Origin: Nakamurella alba
Lineage (GTDB): Bacteria > Actinomycetota > Actinomycetes > Mycobacteriales > Nakamurellaceae
DNA: 64,000 nt
Assembly (NCBI RefSeq): GCF_009707545.1
Contig: NZ_WLYK01000006.1
Coordinates: 248,001 to 312,000 of the forward strand
Reading direction: 5' to 3'
The position numbers and the translations under genes are program-made. The notes beneath the pieces are model-generated. The model saw nothing but the letters and a program-made list of their open reading frames with translations, did not search any database and was not told where the DNA came from. How positions within the stretch are numbered: the first letter of the stretch is position 1; every line of letters starts with the position of its first letter. Below, one piece after another: positions 36,575-61,327 of this stretch.

Positions 36575-36576
36575 AA

Positions 36577-38631: not shown

Positions 38632-38647
38632 CAATATCACATGACAC
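38632..38647. promoter_or_regulatory. Shared 16-nt motif, copy 1 (candidate GntR operator)
   Basis: CAATATCACATGACAC, 102-117 nt upstream of the deaminase start. It matches 14 of 16 bases of the copy upstream of the dehydrogenase beta gene. It overlaps a wider inverted repeat GTGAT-N11-ATCAC at 38620-38640. Confidence 0.55.
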
Positions 38648-38671
38648 TGCGGTGGCAAGGGGTCGCCCGGA

Positions 38672-45153: not shown

Positions 45154-46506
45154 ATGGGCGCCCTGGACCGCGATCGACTCCGACAGCTGACCCGACGGGA
45201 GGATGCCCGGTTCCTCGCCACCCACGTCCGGTCGGGTGAATTGTCCCGATCGGCCACACATCTGCTCGGCGGGGTCCCGATGTCCTGGATGGTCAAGTGG
45301 CCCGGCGCGCATCCGGTCTACGTCGAGTCGGCGTCCGGCGCGCACTTCACCGACGTCGACGGCAACTCCTACGTCGATCTCTGCCTGGGCGACACCGGGG
45401 CGATGGCCGGACACTCCCCTGCGGCGACGATGGCCGCGGTCCGGGCCCAGCTCGACCGCGGCATCACCACGATGCTGCCGTCGGCCGCCGCTCTGGACGT
45501 CTCGGCCGAACTCGCCCGGCACTTCGGGCTGCCGAGCTGGCAGTTCACCCTCACCGCCACCGACGCCAACCGGCACGCACTGCGTTACGCCCGGGCACTG
45601 ACCGGCCGGGGCAAGGTGGTCGTGCACGACTGGTGCTACCACGGCTCGGTCGACGAGACCTTCGCCGTGCTGGACGGTTCCGGGGCGACAATCGACCGGC
45701 CGTCCAGTATCGGGCCGGCCGTCCCGGTCGGGGTGACCACGGTCGTGGTGGAGTTCAACGACCTGGCCGGGCTGGAGACCGCGCTGGCCACCGGCGAGAT
45801 CGCCGCGGTGCTGATGGAGCCGGCGCTGACCAACATCGGCATCGTGCTGCCGGATCCCGGCTACCTGGCCGGCGTGCGCGAGCTGACCCGGAAGTACGGG
45901 ACGCTGCTGATCATCGACGAGACGCACACGCTGTGCGCCGGTCCGGGCGGGAGCACCGCGGCCGAGGGCCTGGAGCCCGACGTCCTGGTGGTCGGCAAAT
46001 CGATCGGCGGCGGGATCCCGTGCGCGGCCTTCGGTCTGAGCGCGGAGGTGGCCGCCCGCATCGAGCGCCTGGTCCGGCTGGAGGACATCGACGTCGGCGG
46101 GATCGGCGGCACCCTCGCCGGCAACCCGCTCTCCAGCGCCGCCATGGCGGCCACCCTGCGGGAGGTGCTCACCGACGACGCCTTCGGGCGGATGACCGAC
46201 CTCGCGGTCCGCTGGACCGCAGGGGTGCAGGCGGCGATCGACGAGGTCGGGGCGCCCTGGCACGTGACCCGGCTGGGCTGCCGCGCGGAGTACGGCTTCT
46301 CGCGGGACCTGCCGCGCAACGGCGCCGAAGCCGCCGCGTCCGACGACTTCGAGCTGCAGCAGTACGTGCACCTGTACGCGCTGAACCGGGGCTTCCTGCT
46401 CACCCCGTTCCACAACATGGCGCTGATGTGCCCGGCCACGACGGGGGCGGACGTCGACGCCCATACGGAGATGTTCGGCCCGATGATGCAGGAGCTGTTC
46501 GCATGA
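45154..46506 (+). CDS. Class III PLP aminotransferase (glutamate-1-semialdehyde aminomutase-like)
   Basis: 450 residues from ATG at 45154; a frame open from about 45010 has no better start. Motifs: VYVESASGAHFTDVDGNSYVD (N-terminal), DWCYHGSVDET, LLIIDETHTL with the pyridine-N Asp, and the Schiff-base Lys in VVGKSIGGGIPCAAFG. The phosphate-cup region reads TATDANRHALRYAR. Homologues are annotated as aspartate aminotransferase family or transaminase without a known substrate. It is divergent from the diguanylate cyclase gene. Confidence 0.9.
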   Translation: MGALDRDRLRQLTRREDARFLATHVRSGELSRSATHLLGGVPMSWMVKWPGAHPVYVESASGAHFTDVDGNSYVDLCLGDTGAMAGHSPAATMAAVRAQLDRGITTMLPSAAALDVSAELARHFGLPSWQFTLTATDANRHALRYARALTGRGKVVVHDWCYHGSVDETFAVLDGSGATIDRPSSIGPAVPVGVTTVVVEFNDLAGLETALATGEIAAVLMEPALTNIGIVLPDPGYLAGVRELTRKYGTLLIIDETHTLCAGPGGSTAAEGLEPDVLVVGKSIGGGIPCAAFGLSAEVAARIERLVRLEDIDVGGIGGTLAGNPLSSAAMAATLREVLTDDAFGRMTDLAVRWTAGVQAAIDEVGAPWHVTRLGCRAEYGFSRDLPRNGAEAAASDDFELQQYVHLYALNRGFLLTPFHNMALMCPATTGADVDAHTEMFGPMMQELFA

Positions 46507-47389: not shown

Positions 47390-49810
47390 CTACAGGGATC
47401 TCTCGTGGGCCCCGGCGGTCGGGCTCTTCGCCGCCAGTTGCCCTCGCACCGGACGGTCGACCGGACCGGCGAGGGTCGCCTCCTGCAGGCTCTGCAGCGC
47501 GGCCGGTCCGTCCACCAGGGCCGTGCCGCCGCCCTCGATCGCGTCCGCACCCTGCTCGCGCAGCGCCCACGGGGTGCCGTACTCACCGAGCAGCTCCAGG
47601 AACGGCACGGCGTCGAACGCCTCGGGCCCGAGCACGCCCGCGCCGGACCAGATGCCCTTCGCGATCAATTCCATGGCGATGACCGGGCAGACCGCGGTCT
47701 GCCAGACCACCGCCTGGGAGTTGTACTCGCGCATCGACCACCGGTTGTCGACCACGTGGTACAGGTACACCTCGCGCGGCCGGCCGTCCTTGCCGAGCCC
47801 GCGGACCCAGGTGCCGGCGCAGGTCTTGCCGTGCATCTTGTCGCCGAGCGTGGCCGGGTCGGGCAGCAGCGCGGCGATGACGTCGCGCGGCGAGACGGTG
47901 ACGCTGCCGACCTGCATCGGCTCGGCCGAGTCGATGCCGAGTTTGCGCTGCAGCTTCAGCATCTCGATGAACTCCTGGCCGAGTCCGTACTTGAAGGTGA
48001 CCCGGCCGACGTCGAGCCAGCGGGGGACCAGCAGCACCTCCTCGTGCTCGACGTTCACGCACTCGATCGGCCCGATGCCCTCCGGGAAGTCGAACACCTC
48101 CGGCTCGGAGAACGGGGCCGTGGTGAAGTGGCCGCGCGCCTTCTCGTAGACGATCGGCGGGTTCAGGCACTCCTCGATGGTGGTCCAGATGGAGAAGGTC
48201 GGCGCGAAGTCGTAGCCCTCGACCTCGAGGTTGCCACCGTCCCGGACACCGATCTCGTCGATCCGGGAGAACAGGTGGTCCGCGGCGTAACGGGCGAACA
48301 CGTCGGCCAGCCCGGGCTCGACACCCATGCCCACCAGGGCGATCCGGCCCGCGGCCTGCCACTCGCCGTCCAGCGCGAACTGCTCGTCCCCGAGCATCAC
48401 GCCGGGCACGTTGTACGGGTCGCTGGGGTGCGGGTGCGACAGCGACATCGCCATGTCCAGGTAGTGCGACCTCGCCCGCAGTGCTGCGGTGAACAGCGGC
48501 ATGACGAACCGCGGGTCGGTGGCGTTGAGCAGCACGTCGCAGCGGTGCATCTCCAGCAGGTTCGCCACCGCCTCCACGTCGGTGGCATCGACCTGGGCGG
48601 CGAGAAAGCGTCCGTCGCCGGACATCTCGACCGCCTGCCGGGCGCGGCCGAGGTCGTAGTCGGCGACCACCAACGCCTCGATGTACTCCCGGCGGGCCGC
48701 CGTGGCGACCACGGCGGAGCCGACACCGCCGGCGCCGACCAGCAGCACCCGGAGCTTGCCCTCCGCGGAGCGCACGGGCTTCGCCGACCGGCCGGCGAGC
48801 ACCGGGGTCGACTCGTCCCACCGGGTACCGGCGGCGAGATCGGCTCGCCGGCGGGCGATCCCGCCCAATGTCTCCAGCACCACGCGGTTGCCGAGCAGGG
48901 CGGTGACGTCGGCATGGTCGTACGGCGGAGCCACCTCGACGATCTCCATGCCGACCAGCGGGGTGTCCCGGCCGATCGCCCGGACGGCGTCCAGCAGCTC
49001 GCGCGCGGTCAGCCCGCCGGGCTCCGGGGTGCCGGTGCCCGGCGCCATACCCGGGTCCACCACGTCGATGTCGACCGAGAGGAAGACGCCGTCGACGTCC
49101 TCGCAGGCCTTCGCGATCACCTCGGCGATGACCTCGTCGAGGCCGCGGCGGCGGATCTCCGCCATCTCGTAGCCGCGCATGCCCTGGTCGGCCATCCAGG
49201 CCAGCTCCGGCGGCTCCGGCCAGTAGCCGCGCAGCCCGACCTGGAAGAACTTGTGCCCGGGCACGGCGCCGGACTCGATCACCCGGCGCATCGGGAGTCC
49301 GTGCCCGTACAGGGATCCGAACTGGATGTCGCCGGTGTCGGCGTGCGCGTCGAAGTGGATGACCGAGATCCGGCCGTAGCCGTAGACCTCGGCCAGGCCG
49401 GTGATGTCGGCCATCGCGATGGTGTGGTCGCCGCCGAGGATCACCGGGATCTTGCCGGCGCCGGCCAGCTGCTCGATGACCCGCTGCAGGCTCTGCAGCG
49501 AGCGGATGGTCTCGGTCGGCGCCATCTCGACGTCACCGGCGTCCACCACGCCGAGATCGCCGAGCGGGTCGACCCGCAGCGACAGGTGCGGGCGGGACCC
49601 GGTGTGCTCCGAGTAGTCGCAGACCCGGATCGCCATCGGGCCCATCCGGGCGCCGGCCCGGTAGGAGGTCCCCGCGTCGTACGGGGCGCCGACGATCACG
49701 CAGGTGGCGTCGGCGTAGGAGACGGGATCGGACAGATCGCAGCGGGGCACACCGGTGAACGTGACATCGGGGCCGTACATTGCGCCGTAGCGCGCCATGG
49801 GAGTGTTCAC
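47390..49810 (-). CDS. Fusion protein: agmatinase-type ureohydrolase plus saccharopine dehydrogenase-like domain
   Basis: 806 residues from GTG at 49810 (GAGGAC 9 nt upstream; ATG at 49798 is possible). Residues 15-320 are a complete ureohydrolase: manganese ligands H129 in GGDHT, D154/H156/D158 in DAHAD, and D247/D249 in SVDIDVVDPGMAPGTG. A linker (about 325-352) leads to a saccharopine dehydrogenase-like domain with NAD(P) motif LLVGAGGVGSA at 356-366, HYLDMAMS-type active-site region and a long C-terminal domain. Agmatinase gives putrescine and urea; the second domain could reductively couple or oxidise a polyamine product, as carboxynorspermidine dehydrogenases do. The reaction is inferred only. 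Confidence 0.9.
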   Translation of the reverse strand: MNTPMARYGAMYGPDVTFTGVPRCDLSDPVSYADATCVIVGAPYDAGTSYRAGARMGPMAIRVCDYSEHTGSRPHLSLRVDPLGDLGVVDAGDVEMAPTETIRSLQSLQRVIEQLAGAGKIPVILGGDHTIAMADITGLAEVYGYGRISVIHFDAHADTGDIQFGSLYGHGLPMRRVIESGAVPGHKFFQVGLRGYWPEPPELAWMADQGMRGYEMAEIRRRGLDEVIAEVIAKACEDVDGVFLSVDIDVVDPGMAPGTGTPEPGGLTARELLDAVRAIGRDTPLVGMEIVEVAPPYDHADVTALLGNRVVLETLGGIARRRADLAAGTRWDESTPVLAGRSAKPVRSAEGKLRVLLVGAGGVGSAVVATAARREYIEALVVADYDLGRARQAVEMSGDGRFLAAQVDATDVEAVANLLEMHRCDVLLNATDPRFVMPLFTAALRARSHYLDMAMSLSHPHPSDPYNVPGVMLGDEQFALDGEWQAAGRIALVGMGVEPGLADVFARYAADHLFSRIDEIGVRDGGNLEVEGYDFAPTFSIWTTIEECLNPPIVYEKARGHFTTAPFSEPEVFDFPEGIGPIECVNVEHEEVLLVPRWLDVGRVTFKYGLGQEFIEMLKLQRKLGIDSAEPMQVGSVTVSPRDVIAALLPDPATLGDKMHGKTCAGTWVRGLGKDGRPREVYLYHVVDNRWSMREYNSQAVVWQTAVCPVIAMELIAKGIWSGAGVLGPEAFDAVPFLELLGEYGTPWALREQGADAIEGGGTALVDGPAALQSLQEATLAGPVDRPVRGQLAAKSPTAGAHERSL

Positions 49811-49979
49811 TCTCTTGTTCGTCCTCGGCCCTGGGGTTGTGTCGTCGGGCCGCGTCGACCGGTGGCAGCGGTCGACCTCCTCAGCTTCCCCGGTCCCCTC
49901 GCGTTCGGGCAAGTGTCACCGGCGGTTCGCACCGGATCGGCAACCGGTCCGCAACGAACCGGCAGCGGGGCGCAACGAC

Positions 49980-51410
49980 TCAGCTGTCGAAGCCGAGGCC
50001 GAAGCGGTCGAGGGCGCGGAGCCAGAGGTTGCGGTGCCCGGCCCGGGCGTCCGCCCGGGCCACCGACCAGCGGGTCAGGTTGACCACGCCGGAGCGCAGC
50101 GGCTCCGGCGGGAACGGCACCGGCTTGCCGCGGATCGTGGACAGGCTGGTGAGCTCGGTGCGCTCGCCGGACAGCAGGTCGAGCATGACCTGGGCGCCGA
50201 ACCGGGTGGAGCCGACGCCGAGTCCGGTGTAGCCGACCGCGTAGGTGACCCGGCCGCCGTGGCCGGTGCCGAAGAACGGGAAGAACCGGGAGCAGGTGTC
50301 GATCACCCCGCCCCAGGTGTGGGTGAACCGCAGCCCCTCCAGCTGCGGGAAGGTCTGGAAGAAGTGGTCGGCCAGCAGCCGGAAGGTCTCCGGACGCTGG
50401 TCCAGCGACGGGTCGATCCGGTTGCCGTAGTGGTAGATCGCGTCGTAGCCGCCCCAGAGGATGCAGTTGTCCTCGGTGAGACGGTAGTAGTGGAACAGGT
50501 TCCCGGCGTCGCCGACGCCCTGTCGGTTGCCCCAGCCGATCGTCTTCAGCTGCGCCTCGGACAGCGGCTCGGTGGCCATCGCGTAGTCGTAGACCGGGAT
50601 CACGTACGGCCGCACCCGCTTGAGCAGCGAGGGGAAGGCGTTGGTGCCCAACGCCACCCGGTCCGCACGCAGCTCGCCGTGCGGGGTGGTCAGCAGCATG
50701 TCCCGGCCGTCCCGGACCATCGAGGTGACCGGGGTGTTCTCGTGGATCCGGACGCCGAGCGACCGGCACGCCTCGGCCAGTCCCCAGACCAGTCGGGCCG
50801 GGTCGACGAGCACAGTCTTGTCCTTGCCCCACACGGCGCCGAGGTAGGTCGGCGAGTTCACCTGGGCGCGGGTGGCGTCGGTGTCGAGAAGTTCGGCGTC
50901 GTCACCGAAGTCGAGCATCCGTTCGTAGTCGGCGGCCAGGTCGCCGATCTGGTAGCTCTCGGTGGCCACCCGCAGCTCACCGGTGCGCTCCAGCTTGCAG
51001 TCGATCGCGAAGTCCTCGATGGTCTTCACGATGCCGGCCAGGTTGGCCCGGCCGAGTCGTTCCAGCCGCGGCATGTCCTCCGGGTACCAGTCCATGCCGT
51101 TGGCCTGGCCGTGGGTGAGCGAGGCGGAGCAGAATCCGCCGTTGCGGCCGGACGCGGCCCAGCCGATGGTCTTCCCCTCGAGCAGCACCACCTCGCGGGA
51201 CGGGTCCTCCTGCTTGGCCAGCAACGCCGTCCAGAGTCCGGAGTAGCCACCGCCGACGACGGCGAGATCGGTGCGGGCACTGCCGGTCAGCGGTTCCTGC
51301 GGGTCGGGGGCGTCGACGTCGTCCAGCCACCAGCAGAGCGGCTCGGCGTCGGCGAGGGAGGTGCGGATGGAGCGGGCCCGAGAACGACCGCCGGGCGACA
51401 GCGGGGACAT
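49980..51410 (-). CDS. FAD-dependent amine oxidoreductase (PuuB-like), copy 1
   Basis: 476 residues, DAO family. FAD motif LAVVGGGYSGLWTALLA near residue 50, followed by the family's ASGRNGGFCS, and a C-terminal YAVGYTGLGVGSTRFGA contact motif. It resembles gamma-glutamylputrescine oxidase and related polyamine oxidases, giving an aldehyde and ammonia. It lies between the aldehyde dehydrogenase and the agmatinase fusion gene on the same strand. No PuuA-type glutamate-putrescine ligase is in the window, so free or acetylated amines may be the substrate. Confidence 0.88.
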   Translation of the reverse strand: MSPLSPGGRSRARSIRTSLADAEPLCWWLDDVDAPDPQEPLTGSARTDLAVVGGGYSGLWTALLAKQEDPSREVVLLEGKTIGWAASGRNGGFCSASLTHGQANGMDWYPEDMPRLERLGRANLAGIVKTIEDFAIDCKLERTGELRVATESYQIGDLAADYERMLDFGDDAELLDTDATRAQVNSPTYLGAVWGKDKTVLVDPARLVWGLAEACRSLGVRIHENTPVTSMVRDGRDMLLTTPHGELRADRVALGTNAFPSLLKRVRPYVIPVYDYAMATEPLSEAQLKTIGWGNRQGVGDAGNLFHYYRLTEDNCILWGGYDAIYHYGNRIDPSLDQRPETFRLLADHFFQTFPQLEGLRFTHTWGGVIDTCSRFFPFFGTGHGGRVTYAVGYTGLGVGSTRFGAQVMLDLLSGERTELTSLSTIRGKPVPFPPEPLRSGVVNLTRWSVARADARAGHRNLWLRALDRFGLGFDS

Positions 51411-51510: not shown

Positions 51511-52995
51511 TCAGTCGGGGACGCCGAACACGGTGCGGTGCCAGGACTTCCGGCCGATGCCGGTGCGGTCCATCGCGACGTGCTTGATCTGGGTGTACTC
51601 CTGCAGCGAGTAGACCGACATGTCCTTGCCGAAGCCGCTGGCGCCGTAGCCGCCGTGCGGCATCTCCGACCAGATCGGGATGTGGTCGTTGAGCCAGACC
51701 GTACCGGCCCGCAGCTCCGCGGACGCCCGCAGGGCGGTGTGCACGTTCGTGGTCCAGGCCGAGGCGGCCAGTCCGTACGGGCTGTCGTTGGCGAGATCCA
51801 GTCCCTCGTCGACGGTGTCGAAGCCGATGACGGTCAGCACCGGTCCGAAGACCTCGTCCTGCACGATCGGGTCGCCCTGGGCCACGTCGGTGATCAGGGT
51901 CGGCCGGTGCCAGAACCCGCCGGCCAGCTCCCCATCGGGCAGCGCACCCGGCGCGATGATCCGGGCGCCACGGGATCCCGCCGCCGCCACCATCCCGGCC
52001 ACCTTGTCCCGGTGCCGGGCCGAGGACAGCGGACCCAGGTCGGTCGCCGGGTCGTCCGGGGATCCGAGCACGATCGAGCCGTACAGGTCGGCGACGCCGG
52101 CCACGAACTCCTCCAGCAGCGAGACGTGCACGTAGGCACGGGTCGCCGCGGTGCAGTCCTGGCCGGTGTTGATCAGCGACCCGGCCACCGCGCCGTGCAC
52201 GGCGGCCTCGAGGTCGGCGTCGGCGAACACCACGAACGGTGCCTTGCCGCCGAGTTCCAGGTGCACCCGGGCCGCGCGTGCCGAGCAGGCGGCCATCACG
52301 CCGCGCCCCACCACCGTCGAGCCGGTGAAGGACACCATCGCGACGTCCGGGTGCGACACCAACGTCTGCCCGGCGTCGGCGCCGGTGCCGGCCAGCACCT
52401 GGATCACGTCCGCGGGAAAGCCTGCGGCAGTGGCGCACTCGGCCATCAGCACCGCGGTGAGCGGGGTGATCTCGGCCGGCTTGAGCACGATGGTGTTACC
52501 CGCGGCCACCGCCGGCAGGATCTTCCAGGCCGCCATCTGCAGCGGGTAGTTCCACGGGGCGATCGAGCCGACGACACCGATCGGCTCCCGCCGGATCGAC
52601 GAGGTGTGGTCCGCCGAGTACTCGCCGGTCGCCGCACCCTCCAGCACCCGTGCGGCGCCGGCGAAGAACGAGGTGTTGTCGATGGTGCCGGGCACGTCGA
52701 AGCCGGTGGCCAGCTTGGCCGGCTTGCCGGTCTGCGCCGACTCCACGGTGGCGAGTTCGGCTTCCCGGGACCGCATCTCGCCCGCCAGGCCGAGCAGCAG
52801 CTCCGAGCGCTCGGCCGGGGTGGTGCGGGACCAGGACCGGAAGGCGGCCTTCGACCGGGCGACGGCCGCGTCCACGTCGGCCGCCGTGGCGAGCGGGTAG
52901 TCGGCGACCACACCGCCGGTGGTCGGGTCCAGGATCTCGAAGCGCTCGCCGGACCCACCCACGGGCAGCCCGGTGACCGGGACGGTCGCGGTCAT
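51511..52995 (-). CDS. 4-aminobutyraldehyde (gamma-aminobutyraldehyde) dehydrogenase
   Basis: 494 residues. Aldehyde dehydrogenase motifs: IAPWNYPLQMAAWKILPA, SFTGSTVVGRG, general base Glu in HLELGGKAP and the catalytic Cys in NTGQDCTAATR. The sequence follows the PatD/Prr group that oxidises aminobutyraldehyde to 4-aminobutyrate. The ATG overlaps a 51-residue gene by 4 nt, tying it to the transporter operon. Confidence 0.92.
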   Translation of the reverse strand: MTATVPVTGLPVGGSGERFEILDPTTGGVVADYPLATAADVDAAVARSKAAFRSWSRTTPAERSELLLGLAGEMRSREAELATVESAQTGKPAKLATGFDVPGTIDNTSFFAGAARVLEGAATGEYSADHTSSIRREPIGVVGSIAPWNYPLQMAAWKILPAVAAGNTIVLKPAEITPLTAVLMAECATAAGFPADVIQVLAGTGADAGQTLVSHPDVAMVSFTGSTVVGRGVMAACSARAARVHLELGGKAPFVVFADADLEAAVHGAVAGSLINTGQDCTAATRAYVHVSLLEEFVAGVADLYGSIVLGSPDDPATDLGPLSSARHRDKVAGMVAAAGSRGARIIAPGALPDGELAGGFWHRPTLITDVAQGDPIVQDEVFGPVLTVIGFDTVDEGLDLANDSPYGLAASAWTTNVHTALRASAELRAGTVWLNDHIPIWSEMPHGGYGASGFGKDMSVYSLQEYTQIKHVAMDRTGIGRKSWHRTVFGVPD

Positions 52996-53147
52996 CGTGA
53001 TCCCCGATCGGGCTTGCGGCGGAACTCGTCCCGCTTGTCCTGCTCCTCCTGCCGGCGGCCCCAGATCTCCTGGAAGCGCCGCGCCGCGAACGGGGCGATC
53101 GCGATGATCACCAGTCCGGCGACGATGGAGATGGTGCCACCGTTCAC
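52992..53147 (-). CDS. 51-residue single-helix membrane protein inside the polyamine operon
   Basis: One hydrophobic helix (SIVAGLVIIAIAPFAA, about 7-22) precedes a strongly charged tail (RRFQEIWGRRQEEQDKRDEF). Its GTG overlaps the potC stop (GTGA) and its TGA overlaps the dehydrogenase ATG (ATGA), so it is fixed in the operon by coupling on both sides. No family is recognised. It might be a transporter accessory subunit or anchor the dehydrogenase at the membrane (inference). Confidence 0.75.
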   Translation of the reverse strand: MNGGTISIVAGLVIIAIAPFAARRFQEIWGRRQEEQDKRDEFRRKPDRGSR

Positions 53148-53998
53148 CGGTTCCTCCGGGCGGTGATCATCCGGCCGGCGACGGTGAAGAGCAGCGCGAT
53201 GACCAGCATGGCCGTGCCGACGACGTTGATCTCCGGCGGGATCGCCTTGCGCGAGGCGCCCCAGACGAACATCGGGAAGGTGACCTCGGAGCCGGAATTG
53301 AAGTTGGTGATGATGAAGTCGTCGAAGGACAGCGCGAACGACAGCATCGCGGCGCCGGCGATGCCGGGGACGATCAGCGGGAAGGTGATGCGCCAGAACG
53401 TCTGCCAGCGGTTGGCGTAGAGGTCCTGGGCCGCCTGCTCGAGTCTCGGGTCCAGGCCGACCAGCCGCGCCTTGACGGTCACCACGACGAAGCTGAAGCA
53501 GAACATGGTGTGCGCGATCCAGATGGTGGTCTGGCCGAGCGGGATGCCCATGTTGACGAACAGCACCAGCAGCGACGAGCCGGCGACGACCTCGGGGGTG
53601 GCCATCGGCACGAAGATCAGCACGTTGGCCAGTGCCTTGCCGCGGAACTCGTGGCGCACCAGGCCGAAGGCGGCGAGCGTCCCGAGGATCGTCGCGGCGA
53701 TGGTCGACAGCACGGCGATCTTGATGCTGAGCAGCAGCGAGTCGCACAGGCCCTCGATGCCGCAGACGTTGCCCCAGTGGTCGAGGGTGAAACCGGCCCA
53801 GGTGTAGTTGAAGTCGCCGGCCGGGTCGTTGAACGAGAACACGATGACGACGGCGATCGGCACGAACATGTAGATGAGCGCCAGGATCCCGAAGAAGGTC
53901 ACCAGGTGGTCGCGGATCCACCGGCCGGCGCCGGACGGCGGGCGGGCGGTGGTGGGCGCCGGCGGGGTCGCGGTCGGCGGCTTGGTGAGGGTTGCCAT
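53144..53998 (-). CDS. potC: Spermidine/putrescine ABC transporter permease PotC
   Basis: 284 residues, six membrane helices after a Pro/Thr-rich N-terminus. The ATPase-contact EAA-like loop reads LEQAAQDLYANRWQTFWRIT, ending FPLIVPGI. VIVFSFNDP near residue 53 is typical of PotC. The start ATG overlaps the potB stop by one base (TGATG). It pairs with PotB to form the import channel. Confidence 0.93.
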   Translation of the reverse strand: MATLTKPPTATPPAPTTARPPSGAGRWIRDHLVTFFGILALIYMFVPIAVVIVFSFNDPAGDFNYTWAGFTLDHWGNVCGIEGLCDSLLLSIKIAVLSTIAATILGTLAAFGLVRHEFRGKALANVLIFVPMATPEVVAGSSLLVLFVNMGIPLGQTTIWIAHTMFCFSFVVVTVKARLVGLDPRLEQAAQDLYANRWQTFWRITFPLIVPGIAGAAMLSFALSFDDFIITNFNSGSEVTFPMFVWGASRKAIPPEINVVGTAMLVIALLFTVAGRMITARRNR

Positions 53999-54939
53999 CA
54001 GACCAGTTCCTCCGTGCCGGCGCGCCGGACGTAGTAGATGACCAGCACCACGATCGCCACCATCAGCGAGATGGACAGCGCGGCCGCGTGGCTGTAGTCA
54101 CGGACCCGCAGGAACAGCGCGTCGATCACGTTGCCCGACATGGATTCCCGCATCGACCCGAGAAAGGTGGCGTTGACGTAGTCACCGGCCGCGGGGATGA
54201 AGGTGAGCAGCGTCCCGGACACCACACCCGGCAGCGACAGCGGCCAGGTGATCTTCCAGAACGAGGTCCACGAGCTGGCGTAGAGGTCGCCGGCCGCCTG
54301 CAGCAGGTTGCGGTCCTGCTTCTCCAGCGACGCGTACAGCGGCAGCGTCATGAAGGGCAGGAAGTTGTAGGTCAGACCCATGATCACCGCGAGCGGCGTG
54401 GCCAGGATGCGCTGGTCGTTGGTCAGCCCGATCAGGTCGGTGATGCTCAGGAAGCCGATGCCGCGCAGGAACGAGGTGAAGGCACCCTCGTCGGCCAGGA
54501 TCGTGGTCCAGGCCAGGGTCCGGATCAGGAAACTGGTGAGGAACGGCGCGATGATCAGCACCAGCAGGAACGGCCGGACCTTGCTGCTCACCTTGAAGGC
54601 GATCGTGTAGGCCAGCGGGTAGGCGATCAGGATCGTCAGGATCGTGGCCAGACCGGCGTAGACGAAGGACCGCAGGAACTGCGGCCAGTACTCGGTCCAG
54701 ACGTCCCAGTAGTTCGAGAAGGACCAGGTGAAGGTGTAGCCCTCCTCCAGGCCGCCGCTGGTGAGCGAGGAGTTCACCAGCGACAGGATCGGCAGCACGA
54801 AGAAGACGATCAGCGCGAGACCGCCGGGCAGCAGCAGGAAGTACGGTGTCAGCTTCTTCGAGACCGGGGTCGCCCGGTCGGGCAGCGGGGTCTGCGGCTC
54901 CTGCGGTTCCGAGGCGGCCAGCGGTGCCGCGGCGGTCAC
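53998..54939 (-). CDS. potB: Spermidine/putrescine ABC transporter permease PotB
   Basis: 313 residues from a GTG overlapping the potA stop by 4 nt. A hydrophilic N-terminus (about 30 residues) precedes six membrane helices. The EAA-like loop is LLQAAGDLYASSWTSFWKIT, ending WPLSLPGV. It forms the membrane channel with PotC and contacts PotA. Confidence 0.93.
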   Translation of the reverse strand: MTAAAPLAASEPQEPQTPLPDRATPVSKKLTPYFLLLPGGLALIVFFVLPILSLVNSSLTSGGLEEGYTFTWSFSNYWDVWTEYWPQFLRSFVYAGLATILTILIAYPLAYTIAFKVSSKVRPFLLVLIIAPFLTSFLIRTLAWTTILADEGAFTSFLRGIGFLSITDLIGLTNDQRILATPLAVIMGLTYNFLPFMTLPLYASLEKQDRNLLQAAGDLYASSWTSFWKITWPLSLPGVVSGTLLTFIPAAGDYVNATFLGSMRESMSGNVIDALFLRVRDYSHAAALSISLMVAIVVLVIYYVRRAGTEELV

Positions 54940-56102
54940 GAGGCCACCTCGGCCGCTTCGGCTTCCTTCCACGCGCCCTCGTGCAGACCGAAGGTGTGCT
55001 CGGGATGCCAGTACACGCTGACCTTCTCGCCCACCCGGTGCAGTTCCGTCGCAGAGTTCTGCGAGAAGACCGCGATCTCCTCCTCGGCATCGGCCAGCGC
55101 CCGGACGACGTACTGGGTGGAGACGCCGATGAAGGAGGCGTCGATGATCTCGCCGTCCACCGCGTTCATCCCGGCCGGCGCCTGGCCCAGCGCCGCGATC
55201 TGGATCTTCTCCGGCCGCACGCCGGCCTCGACCGACACCCCGCTGGCCGCCATCCGCTTGGCCGGCATCGCCAGCTGGACCCCGTGGAAGTCGACCTTCA
55301 CCACGTCCGCGTCGCGCGAGATCACGTTCACCGACAGCAGGTTCGTCTGGCCGAGGAAGCCGGCGACGAAAGCGGTGCGCGGGTTCTCGTAGAGGTCGAC
55401 CGGCGCGCCCATCTGCTCGACCTTGCCCTTGTTCAGCACGGCGATGGTGTCGGCCATGGTCATGGCCTCCTCCTGGTCGTGCGTGACGTGGATGAAGGTG
55501 ATGCCGACCTCGGTCTGGATCCGCTTGAGCTCCAGCTGCATCTGCCGGCGCAGCTTGAGATCCAGGGCGCCGAGCGGCTCGTCGAGCAGCAGCACCTTGG
55601 GCTTGTTGACCAGCGCCCGGACCACCGCGATGCGCTGCTGCTGGCCGCCGGAGAGCTGGGTGGGCCGGCGCTTGGCCAGGTGCTGCATCTCCACCAGCTC
55701 GAGCATCTCGTTGACCCGCCGGTCGATGTCGGACTCCTTGCGCCGGCGCAGGCCGAACGCGATGTTCTCGAAGATCGTCATGTGCGGGAAGAGCGCGTAG
55801 CTCTGGAACACGGTGTTGACCGGCCGCTGGTACGGGCGCTTGTGGGCGATGTCCTCACCGCCGATGAGGATCTGGCCGGCCGAGGGCTCCTCGAGCCCGG
55901 CGACCATCCGCAACGTGGTGGTCTTGCCGCACCCGGACGGGCCCAGCAGTGCGTAGAAACGCCCCTCGGGCACGTCGAGGTCGATGCCGTCCACGGCGCG
56001 GAAGTTGCCGTAGTGCTTGTGCAGACCGCGGATCTGCAGACCGCCGGAGTCCGACGGTGAGGTACCGGTGGTGGTCCGTCCCTCGCTCGAGATGGTGCTC
56101 AT
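54936..56102 (-). CDS. potA: Spermidine/putrescine ABC transporter ATPase PotA
   Basis: 388 residues. Walker A GPSGCGKTTT near residue 55, signature LSGGQQQRIAV, Walker B VLLLDEPLGALD, and the H-loop THDQEEA are intact. The C-terminal third is a TOBE-type regulatory domain. The gene follows potD by 4 nt and overlaps potB. It powers polyamine uptake. Confidence 0.95.
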   Translation of the reverse strand: MSTISSEGRTTTGTSPSDSGGLQIRGLHKHYGNFRAVDGIDLDVPEGRFYALLGPSGCGKTTTLRMVAGLEEPSAGQILIGGEDIAHKRPYQRPVNTVFQSYALFPHMTIFENIAFGLRRRKESDIDRRVNEMLELVEMQHLAKRRPTQLSGGQQQRIAVVRALVNKPKVLLLDEPLGALDLKLRRQMQLELKRIQTEVGITFIHVTHDQEEAMTMADTIAVLNKGKVEQMGAPVDLYENPRTAFVAGFLGQTNLLSVNVISRDADVVKVDFHGVQLAMPAKRMAASGVSVEAGVRPEKIQIAALGQAPAGMNAVDGEIIDASFIGVSTQYVVRALADAEEEIAVFSQNSATELHRVGEKVSVYWHPEHTFGLHEGAWKEAEAAEVAS

Positions 56103-56106: not shown

Positions 56107-57336
56107 TCAGGCTCCCGTCAGCTTGGCAAAGGCACGATTGCATCGGTTCTCCTGCTCCTCGGACAGGCCCATGAACACATGGGCCTTCGCCAGGTCCTCC
56201 TCGGTCGGGAAGACCAGCGGATCCTCCAGGATGTCCGGGTCGATCTCCTCCATCGCCTCCGCGGTCCCGTCCACCGGGGAGATGTAGTTGATCCAGGCCT
56301 CGGCCTGCGCGGCGATCTCCGGCTGGTAGTAGAAGTTGATCAACTTCTCGGCGTTCTCCTTGTGCGGGCTGCGCACCGGCACCACGAAGTTGTCGCTCCA
56401 GAGCGTGCAGCCCGCGTCCGGGATGATGAACTGCAGGTCCGGGTTGTCGGCCTGCAGGCTGACCACGTCACCGGTCCAGCCGACGCACGCGGCGACGTTG
56501 CCCTGCACCAGGTCGGCGCCGTAGTCGTTGCCGGTGAACCGGCGGATCTGCCCGGAGTCGACCGCGTCCTGCAGTTTGCCGATCGCCTGGTCGAACTGGC
56601 TGTCGGTGAAGTTGGCGGGGTCGAAACCCATGTCCAGCAGCACCAGGCCGACGGTGTCCCGCATCTCGGTGAGCAGGGTGACCTTGCCGCGCAGCGCGGG
56701 ATCGGTGAGCAGCTGGTCCATGGACGTGATCTCGCGGCCGCCGGTGGCGGCGGGGTTCACCGCGATGCCGCCGAGGCCGGACTGCCAGGTCATCGAGTAC
56801 TTGCGGCCCGGGTCGTACGAGACCTGGGTGAGGTCCTCCCGCATGTTGGCGAAGTTGGGGATCTTCGAGTGGTCGAGCTCGACGACGAAGCCGAGCCGGA
56901 TCAGCTTGGCGACCATCCAGTCGGTGACCACGAAGACGTCCGCCGCGATCGCCTGTCCGCCGGTGAGCTGTGGCTGGATCTTGGCGAAGTAGCTGTCGTT
57001 GTCGTTGACGTCCTCGGTGTAGGTGACGGTGATGCCGGTCTCGTCCTGGAACTTCTCCAGCGTGGTCGGCTCCGCCTCGCCCTCGGCCGCCGCCTCCTCG
57101 TCCGGGGTGTCGATGTAGAACGGCCAGTTCGCCCAGTTCAGCGTCATGTCGGTGGCCGAGGTGTCGGTCACCGGCTGGTACCCGCTGACCCCGATGCCCG
57201 GGATGCTGCACGCCGCCAGCAGCGCGGACATGCCCGCGGCCCCGGCACCGCGGAACAGCGAACGCCGGGAGATGCCCCGCGGGAGCCTCCGCGGGCCCGC
57301 ACCTGAAGGACCGAGCAGGGGATGCGGACCTGTCAC
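56107..57336 (-). CDS. potD: Polyamine-binding lipoprotein PotD (Tat-type signal)
   Basis: 409 residues from GTG at 57336 with GGGAGG at 6-7 nt. A twin-arginine signal (ISRRSLFRG) and a lipobox (LLAAC) mean export by Tat and lipid anchoring. The binding domain shows NWANWPFYIDTP, FQDETGITVTYTEDVNDND and the C-terminal YYQPEIAAQAEAWINYISPV typical of PotD/PotF. It captures extracellular polyamines. It is the first gene of the minus-strand operon. Confidence 0.93.
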   Translation of the reverse strand: MTGPHPLLGPSGAGPRRLPRGISRRSLFRGAGAAGMSALLAACSIPGIGVSGYQPVTDTSATDMTLNWANWPFYIDTPDEEAAAEGEAEPTTLEKFQDETGITVTYTEDVNDNDSYFAKIQPQLTGGQAIAADVFVVTDWMVAKLIRLGFVVELDHSKIPNFANMREDLTQVSYDPGRKYSMTWQSGLGGIAVNPAATGGREITSMDQLLTDPALRGKVTLLTEMRDTVGLVLLDMGFDPANFTDSQFDQAIGKLQDAVDSGQIRRFTGNDYGADLVQGNVAACVGWTGDVVSLQADNPDLQFIIPDAGCTLWSDNFVVPVRSPHKENAEKLINFYYQPEIAAQAEAWINYISPVDGTAEAMEEIDPDILEDPLVFPTEEDLAKAHVFMGLSEEQENRCNRAFAKLTGA

Positions 57337-57679
57337 AAGTGGCCTCCCGGCGATCGTGCGCGAACGGTTTGGTGCTCTCGGTGCATGTCGGTGCAGTGTC
57401 GGTGCCATCGGCGCGGGCCAGACCTCGTCCCGGACCGGCCGATCCTGACACCGGCGGGACACCGCAGCAAGGACCGGCCTGCGTCACGACCGTCACCGAT
57501 CAACGGCAACGGCGTCGGCACAGGTGCCGTCGGCGGTCGGGAGCACTCCCGGCCGCTCCCACGGTTATCGCAGCCGTGGAACACATCGGCAAGCGTTTCC
57601 GTGTTCCAGAATTGTTTCGACGACGGATCCCGTCACCCGGATGGCCTGCGACCGCTTGCCTCGGCCCGGTCGGAGGGCC
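57337..57679. other. 343-nt divergent promoter region of the polyamine locus
   Basis: Between potD (minus) and the Lrp/AsnC gene (plus). No gene is seen. It holds a 32-bp inverted repeat (57577-57608), described separately, close to the regulator's start. Promoters for both arms of the polyamine locus should be here. Confidence 0.6.
57577..57608. promoter_or_regulatory. Inverted repeat, candidate Lrp/AsnC operator
   Basis: TGGAACAC (57577-57584), 16-nt spacer, GTGTTCCA (57601-57608): perfect 8-bp arms. It lies about 72-103 nt before the regulator's start and between two divergent arms of the polyamine locus. Binding by the adjacent regulator is inferred. Confidence 0.55.
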
Positions 57680-58219
57680 ATGATCGGGGCCATGCCTCGG
57701 CAGTCCCTGGTCCAGCGCACGGCCGAACACCGGGCCGTCCGCGCAGAGGGGCACGGCGGGCACGGTGAGGCCGGGTCGCTCGACGACGTGTCGAAGGCGA
57801 TCATCGAGCAACTGCAGCAGGACGGCCGCCGTCCCTACGCCACCATCGCCGCCGCCGTCGGATTGTCCGAGGCGGCGGTCCGGCAGCGGGTGGCCAGGCT
57901 CGTCGGTTCCGGCGTGGTGCAGATCGTGGCGGTCACCGATCCGGTCCAGGTGGGGTTCACCCGACAGGCGATGATCGGCATCCGCACCGAGGGCAACCTG
58001 GACCCGATCGTCGCCACCCTCAAGGAGATGGACGAGGTCGACTACGTGGTGGTCACCGCGGGCAGTTTCGACATCCTGGTCGAGGTGGTGTGCGAGGACG
58101 ACGACCACCTGCTGGGCCTGCTCAACCATCACATCCGGACGATCCCCGGGGTGCGGTCCACCGAGTCCTTCGTTTACCTCAAGCTCGCCAAGCAGACCTA
58201 CACCTGGGGCACCCGATGA
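57680..58219 (+). CDS. Lrp/AsnC-family regulator of the polyamine locus
   Basis: 179 residues (start ATG 57680; 57692 is equally possible). The N-terminal helix-turn-helix includes IIEQLQQDGRRPYATIAAAV and GLSEAAVRQRVARLVGSGVV. The RAM ligand-binding domain follows, with VAVTDPVQVGFTRQAMIGIR and YVVVTAGSFDILVEVVCEDD. It is divergent from potD and upstream of the aminotransferase, so it probably controls both arms in response to a polyamine or amino acid. Confidence 0.88.
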   Translation: MIGAMPRQSLVQRTAEHRAVRAEGHGGHGEAGSLDDVSKAIIEQLQQDGRRPYATIAAAVGLSEAAVRQRVARLVGSGVVQIVAVTDPVQVGFTRQAMIGIRTEGNLDPIVATLKEMDEVDYVVVTAGSFDILVEVVCEDDDHLLGLLNHHIRTIPGVRSTESFVYLKLAKQTYTWGTR

Positions 58220-58545
58220 TCACCTGCCGGAAGCTGCTGCACGCGGGGGCCCCGACTCGGGTCGGCCTGCGGGCGGACTCCTGCCCGCGGTGCGACGTCC
58301 CGGGCCTGCCGCGGCTCTGCGCGGTCCCCGGCGCCCACCGGCTCGCCTGTCGCTCCGGCCGCGGCGCGCGGCCGGGACCCCGGGCCGCGGGCCGACCACC
58401 CGAGCAGGCCGTCCCGGAACCGGGTACGCGCCCGGCCGCCGATCGCACCCTGCCCCCCACCGAACCTCCCGGCGCCGGACCGTCCGGCTCCGACTCCCGC
58501 CCTGATCCGCAGGGCCCCGACCAGCACGAAGGAACGAGCAGATGA
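58216..58545 (+). CDS. Doubtful 109-residue ORF bridging regulator and aminotransferase
   Basis: It overlaps the regulator's TGA (ATGA) and the aminotransferase ATG (ATGA), which is the only support. The product is Pro/Arg/Gly-rich with a CPRC pair near residue 24 and no recognisable domain, as expected of random high-GC sequence. The interval may instead be a structured leader of the aminotransferase mRNA. Confidence 0.2.
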   Translation: MITCRKLLHAGAPTRVGLRADSCPRCDVPGLPRLCAVPGAHRLACRSGRGARPGPRAAGRPPEQAVPEPGTRPAADRTLPPTEPPGAGPSGSDSRPDPQGPDQHEGTSR

Positions 58546-59909
58546 CTGCCGGCACGGCCGACAAGAAGGCCACCGACCACCTCTGGATGCACTTCACCCG
58601 GATGTCGACGTTCGACGACCATCCGGTCCCCGTCATCGAACGTGGTGAGGGCGCCTACATCTGGGACTCCAACGGCAAGAAGTACATGGACGCGCTGTCC
58701 GGCCTCTTCGTCGTCCAGGCCGGGCACGGCCGCACCGAGATCGCCCAGGCGATGGCCGAGCAGGCCGGCAAGCTGGCGTTCTTCCCGGTGTGGGCGCACG
58801 CGCACCCGGCCGCCATCGAGCTCGCCGAGCGGATGGCCGCGCTGGCCCCGGGCGACCTGAACAAGATCTTCTTCTCCTCCGGCGGCGGCGAGTCGGTGGA
58901 GACCGCCTGGAAGGTGGCCAAGCAGTACTTCAAGCTGATCGGGAAACCGATGAAGCACAAGGTGATCTCGCGGACGATCGCCTACCACGGCACCACCCAG
59001 GGTGCACTGTCGATCACCGGCGTGCCGCCGTTCAAGCAGGTCTTCGAGCCGCTGGTGCCGGGCACCGCGCGGGTGCCGAACACCAACTTCTACCGGGCGC
59101 CGGAGTTCGTCGCGCACGACGAGAAGGTCTTCGGCCGTTGGGCCGCCGACCGCGTCGAGGAGGCCATCCTGCAGGAAGGCCCGGACACCGTCGCCGCCGT
59201 CTTCGTGGAGCCGGTGCAGAACGCCGGCGGGTGCTTCCCGCCGCCGCCCGGCTACTTCGAGCGACTGCGCGAGATCTGCGACACCTACGACGTTCTCCTG
59301 GTCTCCGACGAGGTGATCTGCGCCTACGGGCGGCTGGGCACCATGTTCGGTGCGGAGAAGTACGGCTACCAGCCCGACATCATCACCAGTGCCAAGGGTC
59401 TCACCTCCGGCTACTCCCCGCTCGGCGCGGCGATCATCTCCGACCGCATCTACGAGCCGTTCGGCAAGGGCGACACCATCTTCCCGCACGGCTACACCTT
59501 CGGCGGCCACCCGGTGTCCTGCGCCGCGGCGCTGAAGAACCTCGAGATCTTCGAGCGGGAGGACCTGCTGGGCAACGTCTCCCGCAACGAGAACGCCTTC
59601 CGGTCCACCCTGGAGAAGCTGCTCGACCTGCCGATCGTCGGCGACGTGCGCGGCGACGGGTACTTCTACGGCATCGAGCTGGTGAAGGACAAGAACACCC
59701 GGGAGTCCTTCGACGCCGGCGACTCCGAGCGGATCCTCCGCGGGTTCGTCTCGCCGACGCTGTTCGAGCACGGGCTGTACTGCCGCGCCGACGACCGGGG
59801 CGACCCGGTGGTCCAGGTGGCCCCGCCGCTGATCTGCGGCCAGGCGGAGTTCGACGAGATGGAGCAGATCCTGCGGGACGTGCTCACCGAGGCCTGGAAG
59901 CTGGTCTGA
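58542..59909 (+). CDS. Putrescine-type class III aminotransferase (SpuC-like)
   Basis: 455 residues; ATG at 58542 after GAAGGAACGAG. PLP aminotransferase motifs: FSSGGGESVETAWKVAKQY, YHGTTQGALSITG, LLVSDEVICAYGR and the Schiff-base Lys in SAKGLTSGYSPLGA. The order matches SpuC putrescine/diaminopropane:pyruvate aminotransferases, which give 4-aminobutyraldehyde. The aldehyde dehydrogenase encoded on the other arm would take the product on. Confidence 0.92.
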   Translation: MTAGTADKKATDHLWMHFTRMSTFDDHPVPVIERGEGAYIWDSNGKKYMDALSGLFVVQAGHGRTEIAQAMAEQAGKLAFFPVWAHAHPAAIELAERMAALAPGDLNKIFFSSGGGESVETAWKVAKQYFKLIGKPMKHKVISRTIAYHGTTQGALSITGVPPFKQVFEPLVPGTARVPNTNFYRAPEFVAHDEKVFGRWAADRVEEAILQEGPDTVAAVFVEPVQNAGGCFPPPPGYFERLREICDTYDVLLVSDEVICAYGRLGTMFGAEKYGYQPDIITSAKGLTSGYSPLGAAIISDRIYEPFGKGDTIFPHGYTFGGHPVSCAAALKNLEIFEREDLLGNVSRNENAFRSTLEKLLDLPIVGDVRGDGYFYGIELVKDKNTRESFDAGDSERILRGFVSPTLFEHGLYCRADDRGDPVVQVAPPLICGQAEFDEMEQILRDVLTEAWKLV

Positions 59910-59923: not shown

Positions 59924-61327
59924 ATGGGACCTGCTGTGCCGGAACGGATGCCGGGGTCGTACAGCGGGGTGAGCCTGTGGCTCGACCGGCTGGACGACCC
60001 GCTGGACCCCCGGCCGCCGCTGCCCGGCGATCGCGACGTGGACGTCGCGATCGTCGGCGGCGGGTACACCGGCCTGTGGACCGCGTTCCACCTCCGGCGC
60101 GCGGATCCCGGCCTGCGGATCGCGGTGCTGGAACGACGGATCGCCGGGTTCGGCGCGTCCGGCCGCAACGGCGGCTGGTGCTCGGACCTTTTCCCGGCCT
60201 CCTGGGACAAGATCGCCCGGTACGGCGGGCGGGACTCCGCGCTGCGGATGAAGGCCGCGATGCGGGACTCGATCGACGAGGTCGGGCGCAGCATCGTCGA
60301 TCTCGGGATCGACTGCGGCTTCCACCGGGGCGGGACCGTGGCGCCGGCCCGCAGCCCGGCGCAGTTGCAGCGGGCGCGGGCAGAGGTCGAGCACGCCCGC
60401 CAGTGGGGTGACGGCGAGGACGACCTCCGCCTGCTCGACGCCGCCGCGGTCGCCGACATCACCTCCATGTCAGGCGTTCTCGGCGGTACTTTCACACCGC
60501 ACTGCGCGGCTCTGGATCCCGGCGCCCTGGTCCGCGGGCTGGCCGCGCACGTGGCCGCCGACGGCACCGACCTGTTCGAGGAGACGGCGGTGCGTGAGAT
60601 CCGGCCGCACCGCGTGGTGACCGACCACGGCACCGTGCGGGCCGAGGTCGTCGTCCGGGCCACCGAGGCGTACACCGCCGAATTGCCAGGCCACCGCAGG
60701 GATCTCGCCCCGGTCTACTCGTTGGTGGTGGCCACCGAACCGCTGCCGGAGGACGTGCTGGCGGCGGTCGGGCTGGTGGACCGGCCGACCTTCACCGATC
60801 ACCGGCACATGATCTGCTACGGCCAGCGCACCGCCGACGGGCGCATCGTGTTCGGCGGTCGCGGCGCGCCGTACCACCTCGGCTCCCGCATCCGCACGCC
60901 CTACGACCGGGTGCCGTCGGTGTTCTCGGACCTGCGCCGGACGCTGCTCGAGATGTACCCGGTCCTGCAGGGCGTGCGGTTCACCCACGCCTGGGGCGGC
61001 CCGCTGGGCATCCCGCGGGACTGGCACGCCGGCGTCGGGTACGACGCCTCCACCGGGTTCGCCTGGGCCGGAGGCTATGTCGGCGACGGCGTGTCCACGG
61101 CCAACCTGGCCGGACGGACGCTGGCCGACCTCATCACCGGCGCGGACAGCGACCTCACCACGCTGCCGTGGGTCGGTCACCGGTCCCGCCGTTGGGAGCC
61201 GGAACCGCTGCGCTACCTCGGCATCAACGGCGGGCTGCAGGTGATGTCCGCCGCCGACCGGGCAGAGGCCCGCACCGGCCGGCCGTCGGCGTTGGCCGAC
61301 CGGTTCTCCCGGTTGATCGGCGGCTGA
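59924..61327 (+). CDS. FAD-dependent amine oxidoreductase (PuuB-like), copy 2
   Basis: About 467 residues. FAD motif VAIVGGGYTGLWTAFHL, then FGASGRNGGWCSD; C-terminal WAGGYVGDGVSTANLAG. It is a paralogue of the enzyme at 49980-51410, sharing GGGY(S/T)GLWTA and ASGRNGG(F/W)CS. The start is uncertain (GTG 59918, ATG 59924, GTG 59936 or ATG 59948). It follows the aminotransferase by 14 nt and should act on a polyamine or an aminated derivative. Confidence 0.85.
   Translation: MGPAVPERMPGSYSGVSLWLDRLDDPLDPRPPLPGDRDVDVAIVGGGYTGLWTAFHLRRADPGLRIAVLERRIAGFGASGRNGGWCSDLFPASWDKIARYGGRDSALRMKAAMRDSIDEVGRSIVDLGIDCGFHRGGTVAPARSPAQLQRARAEVEHARQWGDGEDDLRLLDAAAVADITSMSGVLGGTFTPHCAALDPGALVRGLAAHVAADGTDLFEETAVREIRPHRVVTDHGTVRAEVVVRATEAYTAELPGHRRDLAPVYSLVVATEPLPEDVLAAVGLVDRPTFTDHRHMICYGQRTADGRIVFGGRGAPYHLGSRIRTPYDRVPSVFSDLRRTLLEMYPVLQGVRFTHAWGGPLGIPRDWHAGVGYDASTGFAWAGGYVGDGVSTANLAGRTLADLITGADSDLTTLPWVGHRSRRWEPEPLRYLGINGGLQVMSAADRAEARTGRPSALADRFSRLIGG

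Follow-up and report, generated by a model that had tools for sequence, protein, structure and literature searches.

A ureohydrolase-dehydrogenase fusion in a Nakamurella polyamine operon and an actinobacterial relative of carboxyspermidine dehydrogenase

In a 64,000-nucleotide stretch of the Nakamurella alba contig NZ_WLYK01000006.1 (positions 248,001 to 312,000; hereafter the window), one gene encodes a ureohydrolase joined to a saccharopine dehydrogenase-like enzyme, among genes for polyamine import and breakdown. Why are these two enzymes made as one polypeptide, and does the second half build polyamines or take them apart? The initial annotation proposed channelling, i.e., agmatine hydrolysis to putrescine followed by a reductive coupling. 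We find instead that the fusion, a variant at the level of the genus, joins two enzyme types already known, and that the more interesting object is the actinobacterial family of its second half, an apparently NAD-type relative of carboxyspermidine dehydrogenase (CASDH).

The two halves of the fused protein

Translation of the minus strand gave a frame of 802 residues, from an ATG at 49798 to a stop at 47390, with no internal stop. The single uninterrupted frame of the initial annotation thus stood, as did its lower coordinate; its upper one, 49810, was 12 bases too high. Translation probably starts at the ATG at 49798, as the N-termini of relatives support: the eight fused proteins of the genus begin with MARYGxMYGPD (six) or MSDRIMFGPD (G012 and G014). 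An inverted repeat at 49799-49814 was rejected as an operator, its core pattern being absent from the 100 upstream bases in 11 relatives. All three Pfam domains, i.e., Arginase (E 1.1e-83), Sacchrp_dh_NADP and Sacchrp_dh_C, exceeded their cut-offs, the last two in keeping with the saccharopine dehydrogenase-like label. In the first half, H125, D150, H152, D154, D243 and D245, which we take to be the usual manganese ligands of ureohydrolases, were unchanged in all eight fused proteins, as had been claimed for the window protein. DAHxD is named as a manganese-ligand motif in the available part of PMC8125230. An AlphaFold2 model from 63 sequences placed most of the dehydrogenase domain above a pLDDT of 90, with the ureohydrolase lower and several of its loops below 50; the relative placement of the domains is unreliable, the pTM being 0.59, and was left unused.

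By sequence, the nearest solved relatives of the dehydrogenase half are 4ina, 4rl6, 8deb (Bacteroides fragilis CASDH) and 8h4z (Helicobacter pylori CASDH), at 25-30% identity, which upholds the initially suggested kinship to carboxynorspermidine dehydrogenases. The first two are also judged to be CASDHs in PMC10413350 (Lee et al., cited throughout from the part available). The four best structure matches of a profile search were all CASDH-type, and in a fold search the entries of these proteins filled the first 14 rows, with lysine dehydrogenase 3abi coming later. Template modelling (TM) scores by target were 0.89-0.91 for 4ina, 8h4z and 8deb, and 0.86-0.92 over the listed CASDH-type chains. 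We then compared 46 dehydrogenase sequences, i.e., 45 chosen actinobacterial rows and the window protein, five of them fused. Residues E188, H228, E229 and E230 of B. fragilis CASDH correspond to E543, H585, E586 and E587 here, and were kept in 46/46 sequences as well as in all four CASDH-type chains. In the B. fragilis enzyme, Glu188, Glu229 and His228 belong to the active site, with a proposed His228-Glu230-Ser144 relay (PMC10413350). On these alignments the dehydrogenase groups as a member of a conserved actinobacterial CASDH-like clade, nearest to carboxyspermidine dehydrogenase. One homologue (63%) lies in a metagenome-assembled genome (MAG) labelled Chloroflexi (L155), through transfer or because the MAG is mislabelled.

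In B. fragilis CASDH the cofactor phosphate contacts Thr36, Lys39 and an arginine (printed as Arg45), and also a water that Thr36 and Ser34 hold in place, Arg35 contacts the adenine, and the rate with NADH was not above the detection limit (PMC10413350). Three of these columns are altered in most of the 46 sequences, i.e., R35 (Tyr in 28, Arg in one), T36 (Asp in 39, Glu in three, Thr in none) and K39 (Arg in 41, Lys in four). At the position of S34, D380 in the window protein, Asp is found in 46/46. NAD preference is classically marked by an acidic residue where the second strand ends and, because Asp replaces this cofactor-site Ser throughout, we predict that the clade uses NAD. The CASDH pair E183/R187 near Glu188 has become W538/E542 in this clade, and the score against NF043000, the carboxynorspermidine synthase equivalog, was 180.4 bits vs a cut-off of 800.

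The partner decarboxylase of CASDH (nspC/CASDC) was matched in 0/17 genomes of the genus, and nspC exceeded its cut-off in none of 397 genomes of the order, with weak matches in 39; among the search controls, 6/14 were matched, one over the cut-off. Because no partner decarboxylase was found, a biosynthetic pathway would be broken at its second step, the carboxyaminopropylagmatine variant included. This variant route to spermidine (CAPADH/CAPADC) is described in the accessible part of PMC11999265. The N. alba genome also holds matches to S-adenosylmethionine (AdoMet) decarboxylase (one), to OKR_DC (one) and to Orn_Arg_deC (two), at C6:433006-433326, C1:1882762-1883592, C1:1479114-1479896 and C16:24185-24994.

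The ureohydrolase half exceeded the TIGR01230 agmatinase cut-off by 11 bits (185.4 vs 174.3), and is likely to be an agmatinase rather than, e.g., a guanidinobutyrase; agmatine is our first guess at the substrate and 4-guanidinobutyrate our second. Guanidinase (GdmH) was rejected, as the protein has DAHAD and not the D-R-H-V-D of 7esr and 9fek. A guanidino-acid hydrolase, converting 4-guanidinobutyrate to gamma-aminobutyrate (GABA), is a possible but doubtful alternative; its likelihood is independent of the dehydrogenase readings weighed below and is not to be added to theirs. In its favour, solved proclavaminate amidinohydrolase, guanidinases, guanidinobutyrase and guanidinopropionase (168.3-177.7 bits) ranked above Escherichia coli agmatinase (143.4 bits), and the score against the agmatinase subfamily NF002564 was 210 bits, below the cut-off of 302. 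Eleven aligned clade members have H-[TD]-G-[SA]-R-P in a loop where SpeB has W-E-H-N; this loop carries the agmatine-binding Trp68 in SpeB and Arg72 in GbuA (PMC8125230, PMC9772407, the latter likewise available in part). In the MAFFT alignment, which is uncertain in this loop, Thr rather than Trp occupies the Trp68 column. R69 falls on GbuA R72, which may contact a carboxylate, in the HMMER alignment (counted by hand) but off it in MAFFT, so that this point is alignment-dependent. The TIGR01230 match and the polyamine operon also speak against a guanidino-acid hydrolase.

Occurrence and origin of the fusion

The full-length fusion was found in 8/17 genus genomes (N. alba, G002, G004, G010, G011, G012, G013 and G014), the seven other proteins being 74-86% identical to that of the window. 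The chance that an assembly or sequencing error joins two genes, an artefact considered in the initial annotation, is negligible, as eight genomes have the same junction with no intervening stop. MAG BP_174 (L123) does contain an unfused tandem whose two genes share a frame; its match over residues 1-750 was rejected as a further fusion, since stops lie between the genes. Matches suggesting a dehydrogenase fused to a C-terminal partner (L053, L057, L059 and L078) ran across stops and were likewise rejected. Both halves were present as separate genes in three genus genomes (G005, G009 and G015, the last a draft assembly of ~400 contigs at 88% completeness); G006 has just the ureohydrolase clade, and G016 just the dehydrogenase. 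Neither half was found in four (G001, G003, G007 and G008), three of which have remoter arginase-family matches at 28-42% identity. A scan of named genomes (best 80 matches) includes Nakamurella silvestris (L121), Nakamurella endophytica (L124) and two further Nakamurella-type MAG records. Among the matches listed for 397 order and 396 phylum genomes, with at most two candidates scored per genome, full-length fusions were confined to the same eight genus genomes and to N. alba itself, respectively.

In a dehydrogenase tree of 41 rows, the eight fused domains formed one clade (100/100), outside which fell the dehydrogenases that G005, G009 and G015 encode separately, as well as the one in G016. 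A ureohydrolase tree of 23 rows united the lone genes from G005, G006, G009 and G015 with six fused ones in a 10-row clade (100/99), with the fused pair G012/G014 beside it; branching inside the ten is unsettled. The last residues of the lone ureohydrolases are HERPL, ETRAL, HERSL and HERAL; in four of the fusions, HERSL, HTRAL, HSRAL and HSRAL stand at the end, behind the dehydrogenase domain. This H-x-R-x-L-like tail, common to lone ureohydrolases (L041, L043, L045 and L046) and half of the fusions, could act as a signal or be what remained after a domain was lost. The simplest reading would be a single fusion event, after which some lines lost the dehydrogenase part; three of these lines have another dehydrogenase. 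The shared tail is short, and two separate joinings may have occurred instead. The lone ureohydrolases of these four Nakamurella genomes may thus be fusions stripped of their second domain. Whichever origin holds, the covalent link is dispensable for either part. The ureohydrolase of this clade lacks the second domain in four relatives.

The halves are separate proteins elsewhere, as initially annotated. Nine unfused pairs were measured, with start codons chosen by script, and 8/9 lay within 134 nt, in both gene orders. With the dehydrogenase first, the genes overlapped by 4 nt (L032, L048 and L051) or lay 10 nt (L017) or 79 nt (L116) apart; with the ureohydrolase first, they overlapped by 1 nt (L081) or were separated by 4 nt (L050), 134 nt (L060) or 1853 nt (L061). 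A further locus, L052, has the two genes ~13 kb apart. Because both gene orders recur, these pairs would argue for a shared use of the two enzymes rather than a fixed arrangement. In L057, L058 and L059 (genus g7) the dehydrogenase is followed directly by an apparent acetyl-CoA hydrolase/CoA-transferase gene (labelled by inspection).

Operon and wider gene neighbourhoods

The fusion belongs to a one-direction minus-strand run of genes for PotD-, PotA-, PotB- and PotC-like proteins, an aldehyde dehydrogenase (ALDH), an FAD-dependent oxidoreductase and the fusion itself (Table 1). The ALDH matched NF010000 at 657.8 bits (cut-off 615), and the PotA-like protein, with 390.9 bits vs 355.6 for TIGR01187, is the sole one of the four Pot genes above a polyamine NCBIfam cut-off. 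This is an operon for polyamine uptake and catabolism, and the import genes, aminotransferase and ALDH of the initial annotation hold. Its two PuuB-like oxidases are weakly founded; the best match of both, TIGR03329, scored 220.8 and 226.9 bits vs a cut-off of 632.8. The first aminotransferase (58542..59909) has a homologue in 17/17 genus genomes at E 1e-150, and the oxidoreductase upstream of the fusion in 11/17, including all eight with the fusion; G008 (L204) has this oxidoreductase with no Pot genes nearby. A transaminase of the NF005453 type also lies near the fusion, pair or dehydrogenase in L034, L035, L038, L039, L056 and L106, the first four being fusions.

Table 1. Features of the fusion gene and its neighbourhood (window coordinates)
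Feature	Position	Strand	Evidence
Fusion gene, 802 aa, ureohydrolase and CASDH-like dehydrogenase	47390..49798	-	Translation, Pfam, same architecture in 8/17 genus genomes
Ureohydrolase domain (Pfam Arginase), residues 32-311	48866..49705	-	Pfam, alignments
Inter-domain linker, residues 312-349: helix end, then low-confidence loop 333-342	48752..48865	-	Pfam, predicted structure
Cofactor-binding domain (Sacchrp_dh_NADP), residues 351-488, D380	48335..48748	-	Pfam, alignment
Catalytic/dimerisation domain (Sacchrp_dh_C), residues 492-741, E543 and H585-E586-E587	47576..48325	-	Pfam, alignment
Low-confidence C-terminal tail, residues 754-802, ends HERSL	47393..47539	-	Alignment, predicted structure
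FAD-dependent oxidoreductase (DAO fold), next upstream of fusion	49980..51410	-	Pfam, profiles
Aminobutyraldehyde-dehydrogenase-type ALDH	51511..52995	-	NF010000
PotC-like polyamine ABC permease	53144..53998	-	Profile search
PotB-like polyamine ABC permease, start uncertain	53998..54972	-	Profile search
PotA-like polyamine ABC ATPase	54936..56102	-	TIGR01187 over cut-off
PotD-like binding protein, start uncertain, below cut-off	56107..57462	-	Pfam, profiles
Lrp/AsnC-type regulator, divergent, start uncertain	57524..58219	+	Pfam
Class III aminotransferase	58542..59909	+	NF005102 over cut-off
Second FAD-dependent oxidoreductase	59924..61327	+	Profile search
Second class III aminotransferase, convergent with fusion	45154..46506	+	NF005453 over cut-off

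Elsewhere in the window, genes at 35192-41488 on the minus strand are likely to form a second catabolic cluster, with an ALDH, a 4-hydroxyproline epimerase-like protein (NF010578 at 350 bits, below the cut-off of 376), a DHDPS-type lyase and FAD proteins, several of these labels being given by inspection. The DAO-type protein at 40340-41488 (minus strand) probably serves hydroxyproline use and is best left out of the polyamine set.

Context loci were hand-selected from lists of matches (15 from the genus, 20 from the order and 20 from the phylum), so that the shares among them are not frequencies. The 40 dehydrogenase loci outside the genus, each of 20 kb, contained at least three Pot subunits in 12 cases (nine of them with a ureohydrolase too), an aminotransferase in 17, an ALDH in 11, a ureohydrolase in 10 and an oxidoreductase in five; 18/40 held any of Pot, aminotransferase or ureohydrolase. 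Neighbours were also clustered over 110 dehydrogenase loci, i.e., those of 114 in which the dehydrogenase gene was called, some genomes appearing twice (e.g., L053/L149 and L055/L143), with cluster names that rest on representatives or close members. Class III aminotransferases occurred in 35 of these loci and a binding protein in 28 (directly before the dehydrogenase in 25). TetR-like regulators were counted in 24, and MMSDH-type dehydrogenases and APC-type permeases in 19 loci each; the TetR and APC labels were given by inspection, with no NCBIfam match. In Streptosporangium canum (L154), whose sequences are close to the cluster representatives, the dehydrogenase is preceded by genes for a class III aminotransferase, an MMSDH-family enzyme (TIGR01722, 719.8 bits vs 448.5) and a binding protein that resembles YdcS (180.2 bits, under the cut-off of 725), and L183 has a GABA transaminase (596.6 bits, cut-off 506.65). 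Amine and semialdehyde catabolism recurs as a theme around the dehydrogenase. An MMSDH neighbour would suit a C3 semialdehyde product, i.e., cleavage on the aminopropyl side of spermidine. L154 and Planobispora siamensis (L126) share a layout in which the binding protein, aminotransferase and MMSDH-type gene lie on one side of the dehydrogenase, opposite an oligopeptide-type ABC transporter.

Proposed function, alternatives and known systems

The reading that we favour, tentatively and at a little under an even chance, is a catabolic two-enzyme fusion added to an ordinary actinobacterial operon for polyamine uptake and breakdown, with an NAD-type oxidative dehydrogenase that cleaves a polyamine secondary amine. 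It builds on the architecture, conservation, gene context, residue pattern and decarboxylase absence reported above, from which we infer the cofactor, direction and substrates. Polyamines and agmatine would enter through PotABCD. The N-terminal half would be a hydrolase of guanidino substrates, its most probable reaction being that of agmatine to putrescine and urea (or else one that yields GABA), and the CASDH-like C-terminal half, switched to NAD and most likely oxidative, would cut a polyamine at its secondary amine. The first candidate reaction is spermidine + NAD+ + H2O -> putrescine + 3-aminopropanal + NADH, the next being on carboxylated spermidine derivatives. His585, with Glu587, could act as the base while Glu543 and Glu586 hold an ammonium group; hydride would leave the carbon beside the secondary nitrogen, and hydrolysis of the imine would give an amine and an aldehyde. 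Both halves would then feed in from the side, at putrescine and its aldehydes, and the aminotransferase, FAD oxidase and ALDH of the operon might carry these on to GABA or beta-alanine. Through the covalent link, two enzymes whose genes are neighbours in several relatives would be produced together; the fusion is not evidence of substrate channelling. A bolder version, which we consider somewhat unlikely, would make the dehydrogenase an undescribed NAD-dependent polyamine-cleaving family that arose from the CASDH fold through a cofactor switch and a reversed direction. Such a family would open a flavin-free breakdown of spermidine across Actinomycetota and, welded to an agmatinase in Nakamurella, give one protein that turns both spermidine and agmatine into putrescine.

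Several observations weigh against the catabolic reading. The relay Ser144 of CASDH is Ala498 in the window protein (Ser in 36, Ala in nine and Thr in one of the 46 sequences; Thr in three and Ser in one of the four CASDH-type chains), and the dehydrogenase-specific basic residues R430 and K603 could bind a carboxylate, which spermidine lacks. Oxidising a secondary amine with NAD is energetically uphill and has to be drawn forward. The earliest report of CASDH activity was with either NADH or NADPH (PMC10413350), and therefore NAD use does not fix the direction. G003 (L203) carries the operon with neither the fusion nor either half and, because of this, the fusion is accessory to the operon. 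The AdoMet decarboxylase match in N. alba means that spermidine may also be made there. Finally, in the named-genome scan, 75 listed dehydrogenase loci (~10 kb, Nakamurella-type left out) held a ureohydrolase in two, PotD in one, an aminotransferase in two and an oxidoreductase in three; with the four Nakamurella-type loci, the counts were six, five and five of 79 for ureohydrolase, PotD and aminotransferase.

This scarcity of polyamine genes, together with the TetR-like gene directly before the dehydrogenase in 22/110 loci, would suit a substrate other than a polyamine, i.e., some other N-substituted amino acid, with the polyamine link local to some lineages. We regard this as quite unlikely, since the (hand-picked) order and phylum loci repeatedly bring the dehydrogenase together with genes for polyamine transport, an aminotransferase and a ureohydrolase. 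The basic residues speak for another possibility, also unlikely, namely that the dehydrogenase cleaves a carboxylate of the putreanine or isoputreanine type, formed when an aminotransferase or oxidase and an ALDH oxidise one end of spermidine, into a diamine and a semialdehyde. Isoputreanine is carboxynorspermidine without its alpha-amino group, and several loci place the dehydrogenase near an aminotransferase and an ALDH, others near an MMSDH-type enzyme. Against this, E188 and E229, proposed to position aspartate semialdehyde in CASDH, are retained, and a literature search on putreanine showed no such bacterial step among the papers that it listed.

The reading of the initial annotation, a biosynthetic CASDH that channels putrescine from agmatine into reductive coupling with aspartate semialdehyde, fared worse, and we consider it very unlikely. 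In its favour, the nearest solved relatives of the dehydrogenase are CASDHs, the four active-site residues are kept, and putrescine is a CASDH substrate (PMC10413350). It is opposed by the lack of nspC in the genus and of any match over the cut-off in the order (39 weak matches), the NF043000 score, the altered cofactor site with Asp in every sequence, the setting among uptake and oxidation genes and the separability of the halves, none of these being decisive alone; the AdoMet decarboxylase match also hints at the usual route to spermidine. In literature searches, none of which named such an enzyme directly, we found neither the fusion nor a comparable NAD-dependent spermidine dehydrogenase described.

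Compared with known systems, the dehydrogenase half shares with CASDH (EC 1.5.1.43; 8deb, 8h4z) the whole-domain fold, the H-E-E triad and Glu188, but differs in its altered NADP-site residues, W538/E542, catabolic operon and lack of a detected decarboxylase partner. Lysine 6-dehydrogenase 3abi (TM by target 0.84-0.85) and saccharopine dehydrogenase 2axq (0.66) show a distant likeness of fold at 15-17% identity, and neither was in the profile match list at E 0.01. The triad, said to be absent from related families in the available part of PMC10413350, separates the 46 sequences from the saccharopine reductase, lysine 6-dehydrogenase and homospermidine synthase group. Labels of "saccharopine dehydrogenase", or carboxyspermidine synthesis deduced from such genes, may mislead. 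The CAPADH/aminopropylagmatine route likewise combines a CASDH homologue with agmatine chemistry and is finished by a ureohydrolase; it needs a decarboxylase, and none was found here. The first half shares the arginase fold and manganese ligands with SpeB, GbuA and proclavaminate amidinohydrolase, and differs in its loop and its fused C-terminal domain. A Fusobacterium fusion of ornithine decarboxylase and an arginase/agmatinase also joins a polyamine enzyme to an arginase-type domain, one unlikely to be active according to the part of PMC8503589 available; here the partner is another one and the manganese ligands are kept. The present fusion physically ties a candidate catabolic dehydrogenase to agmatine hydrolysis. 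The operon resembles SCO5655-SCO5671 of Streptomyces coelicolor in its Lrp/AsnC regulator, PatA-type aminotransferase, aminobutyraldehyde dehydrogenase and polyamine ABC transporter. In the available part of the review covering that region (PMC9397018), in whose main text the word "saccharopine" was not found, actinobacterial polyamine use is described as gamma-glutamylation and aminotransfer. An NAD-type relative of a biosynthetic dehydrogenase that is phylum-wide in our sample, partnerless in the order and near polyamine transporters in several lineages is a candidate for a missing catabolic step.

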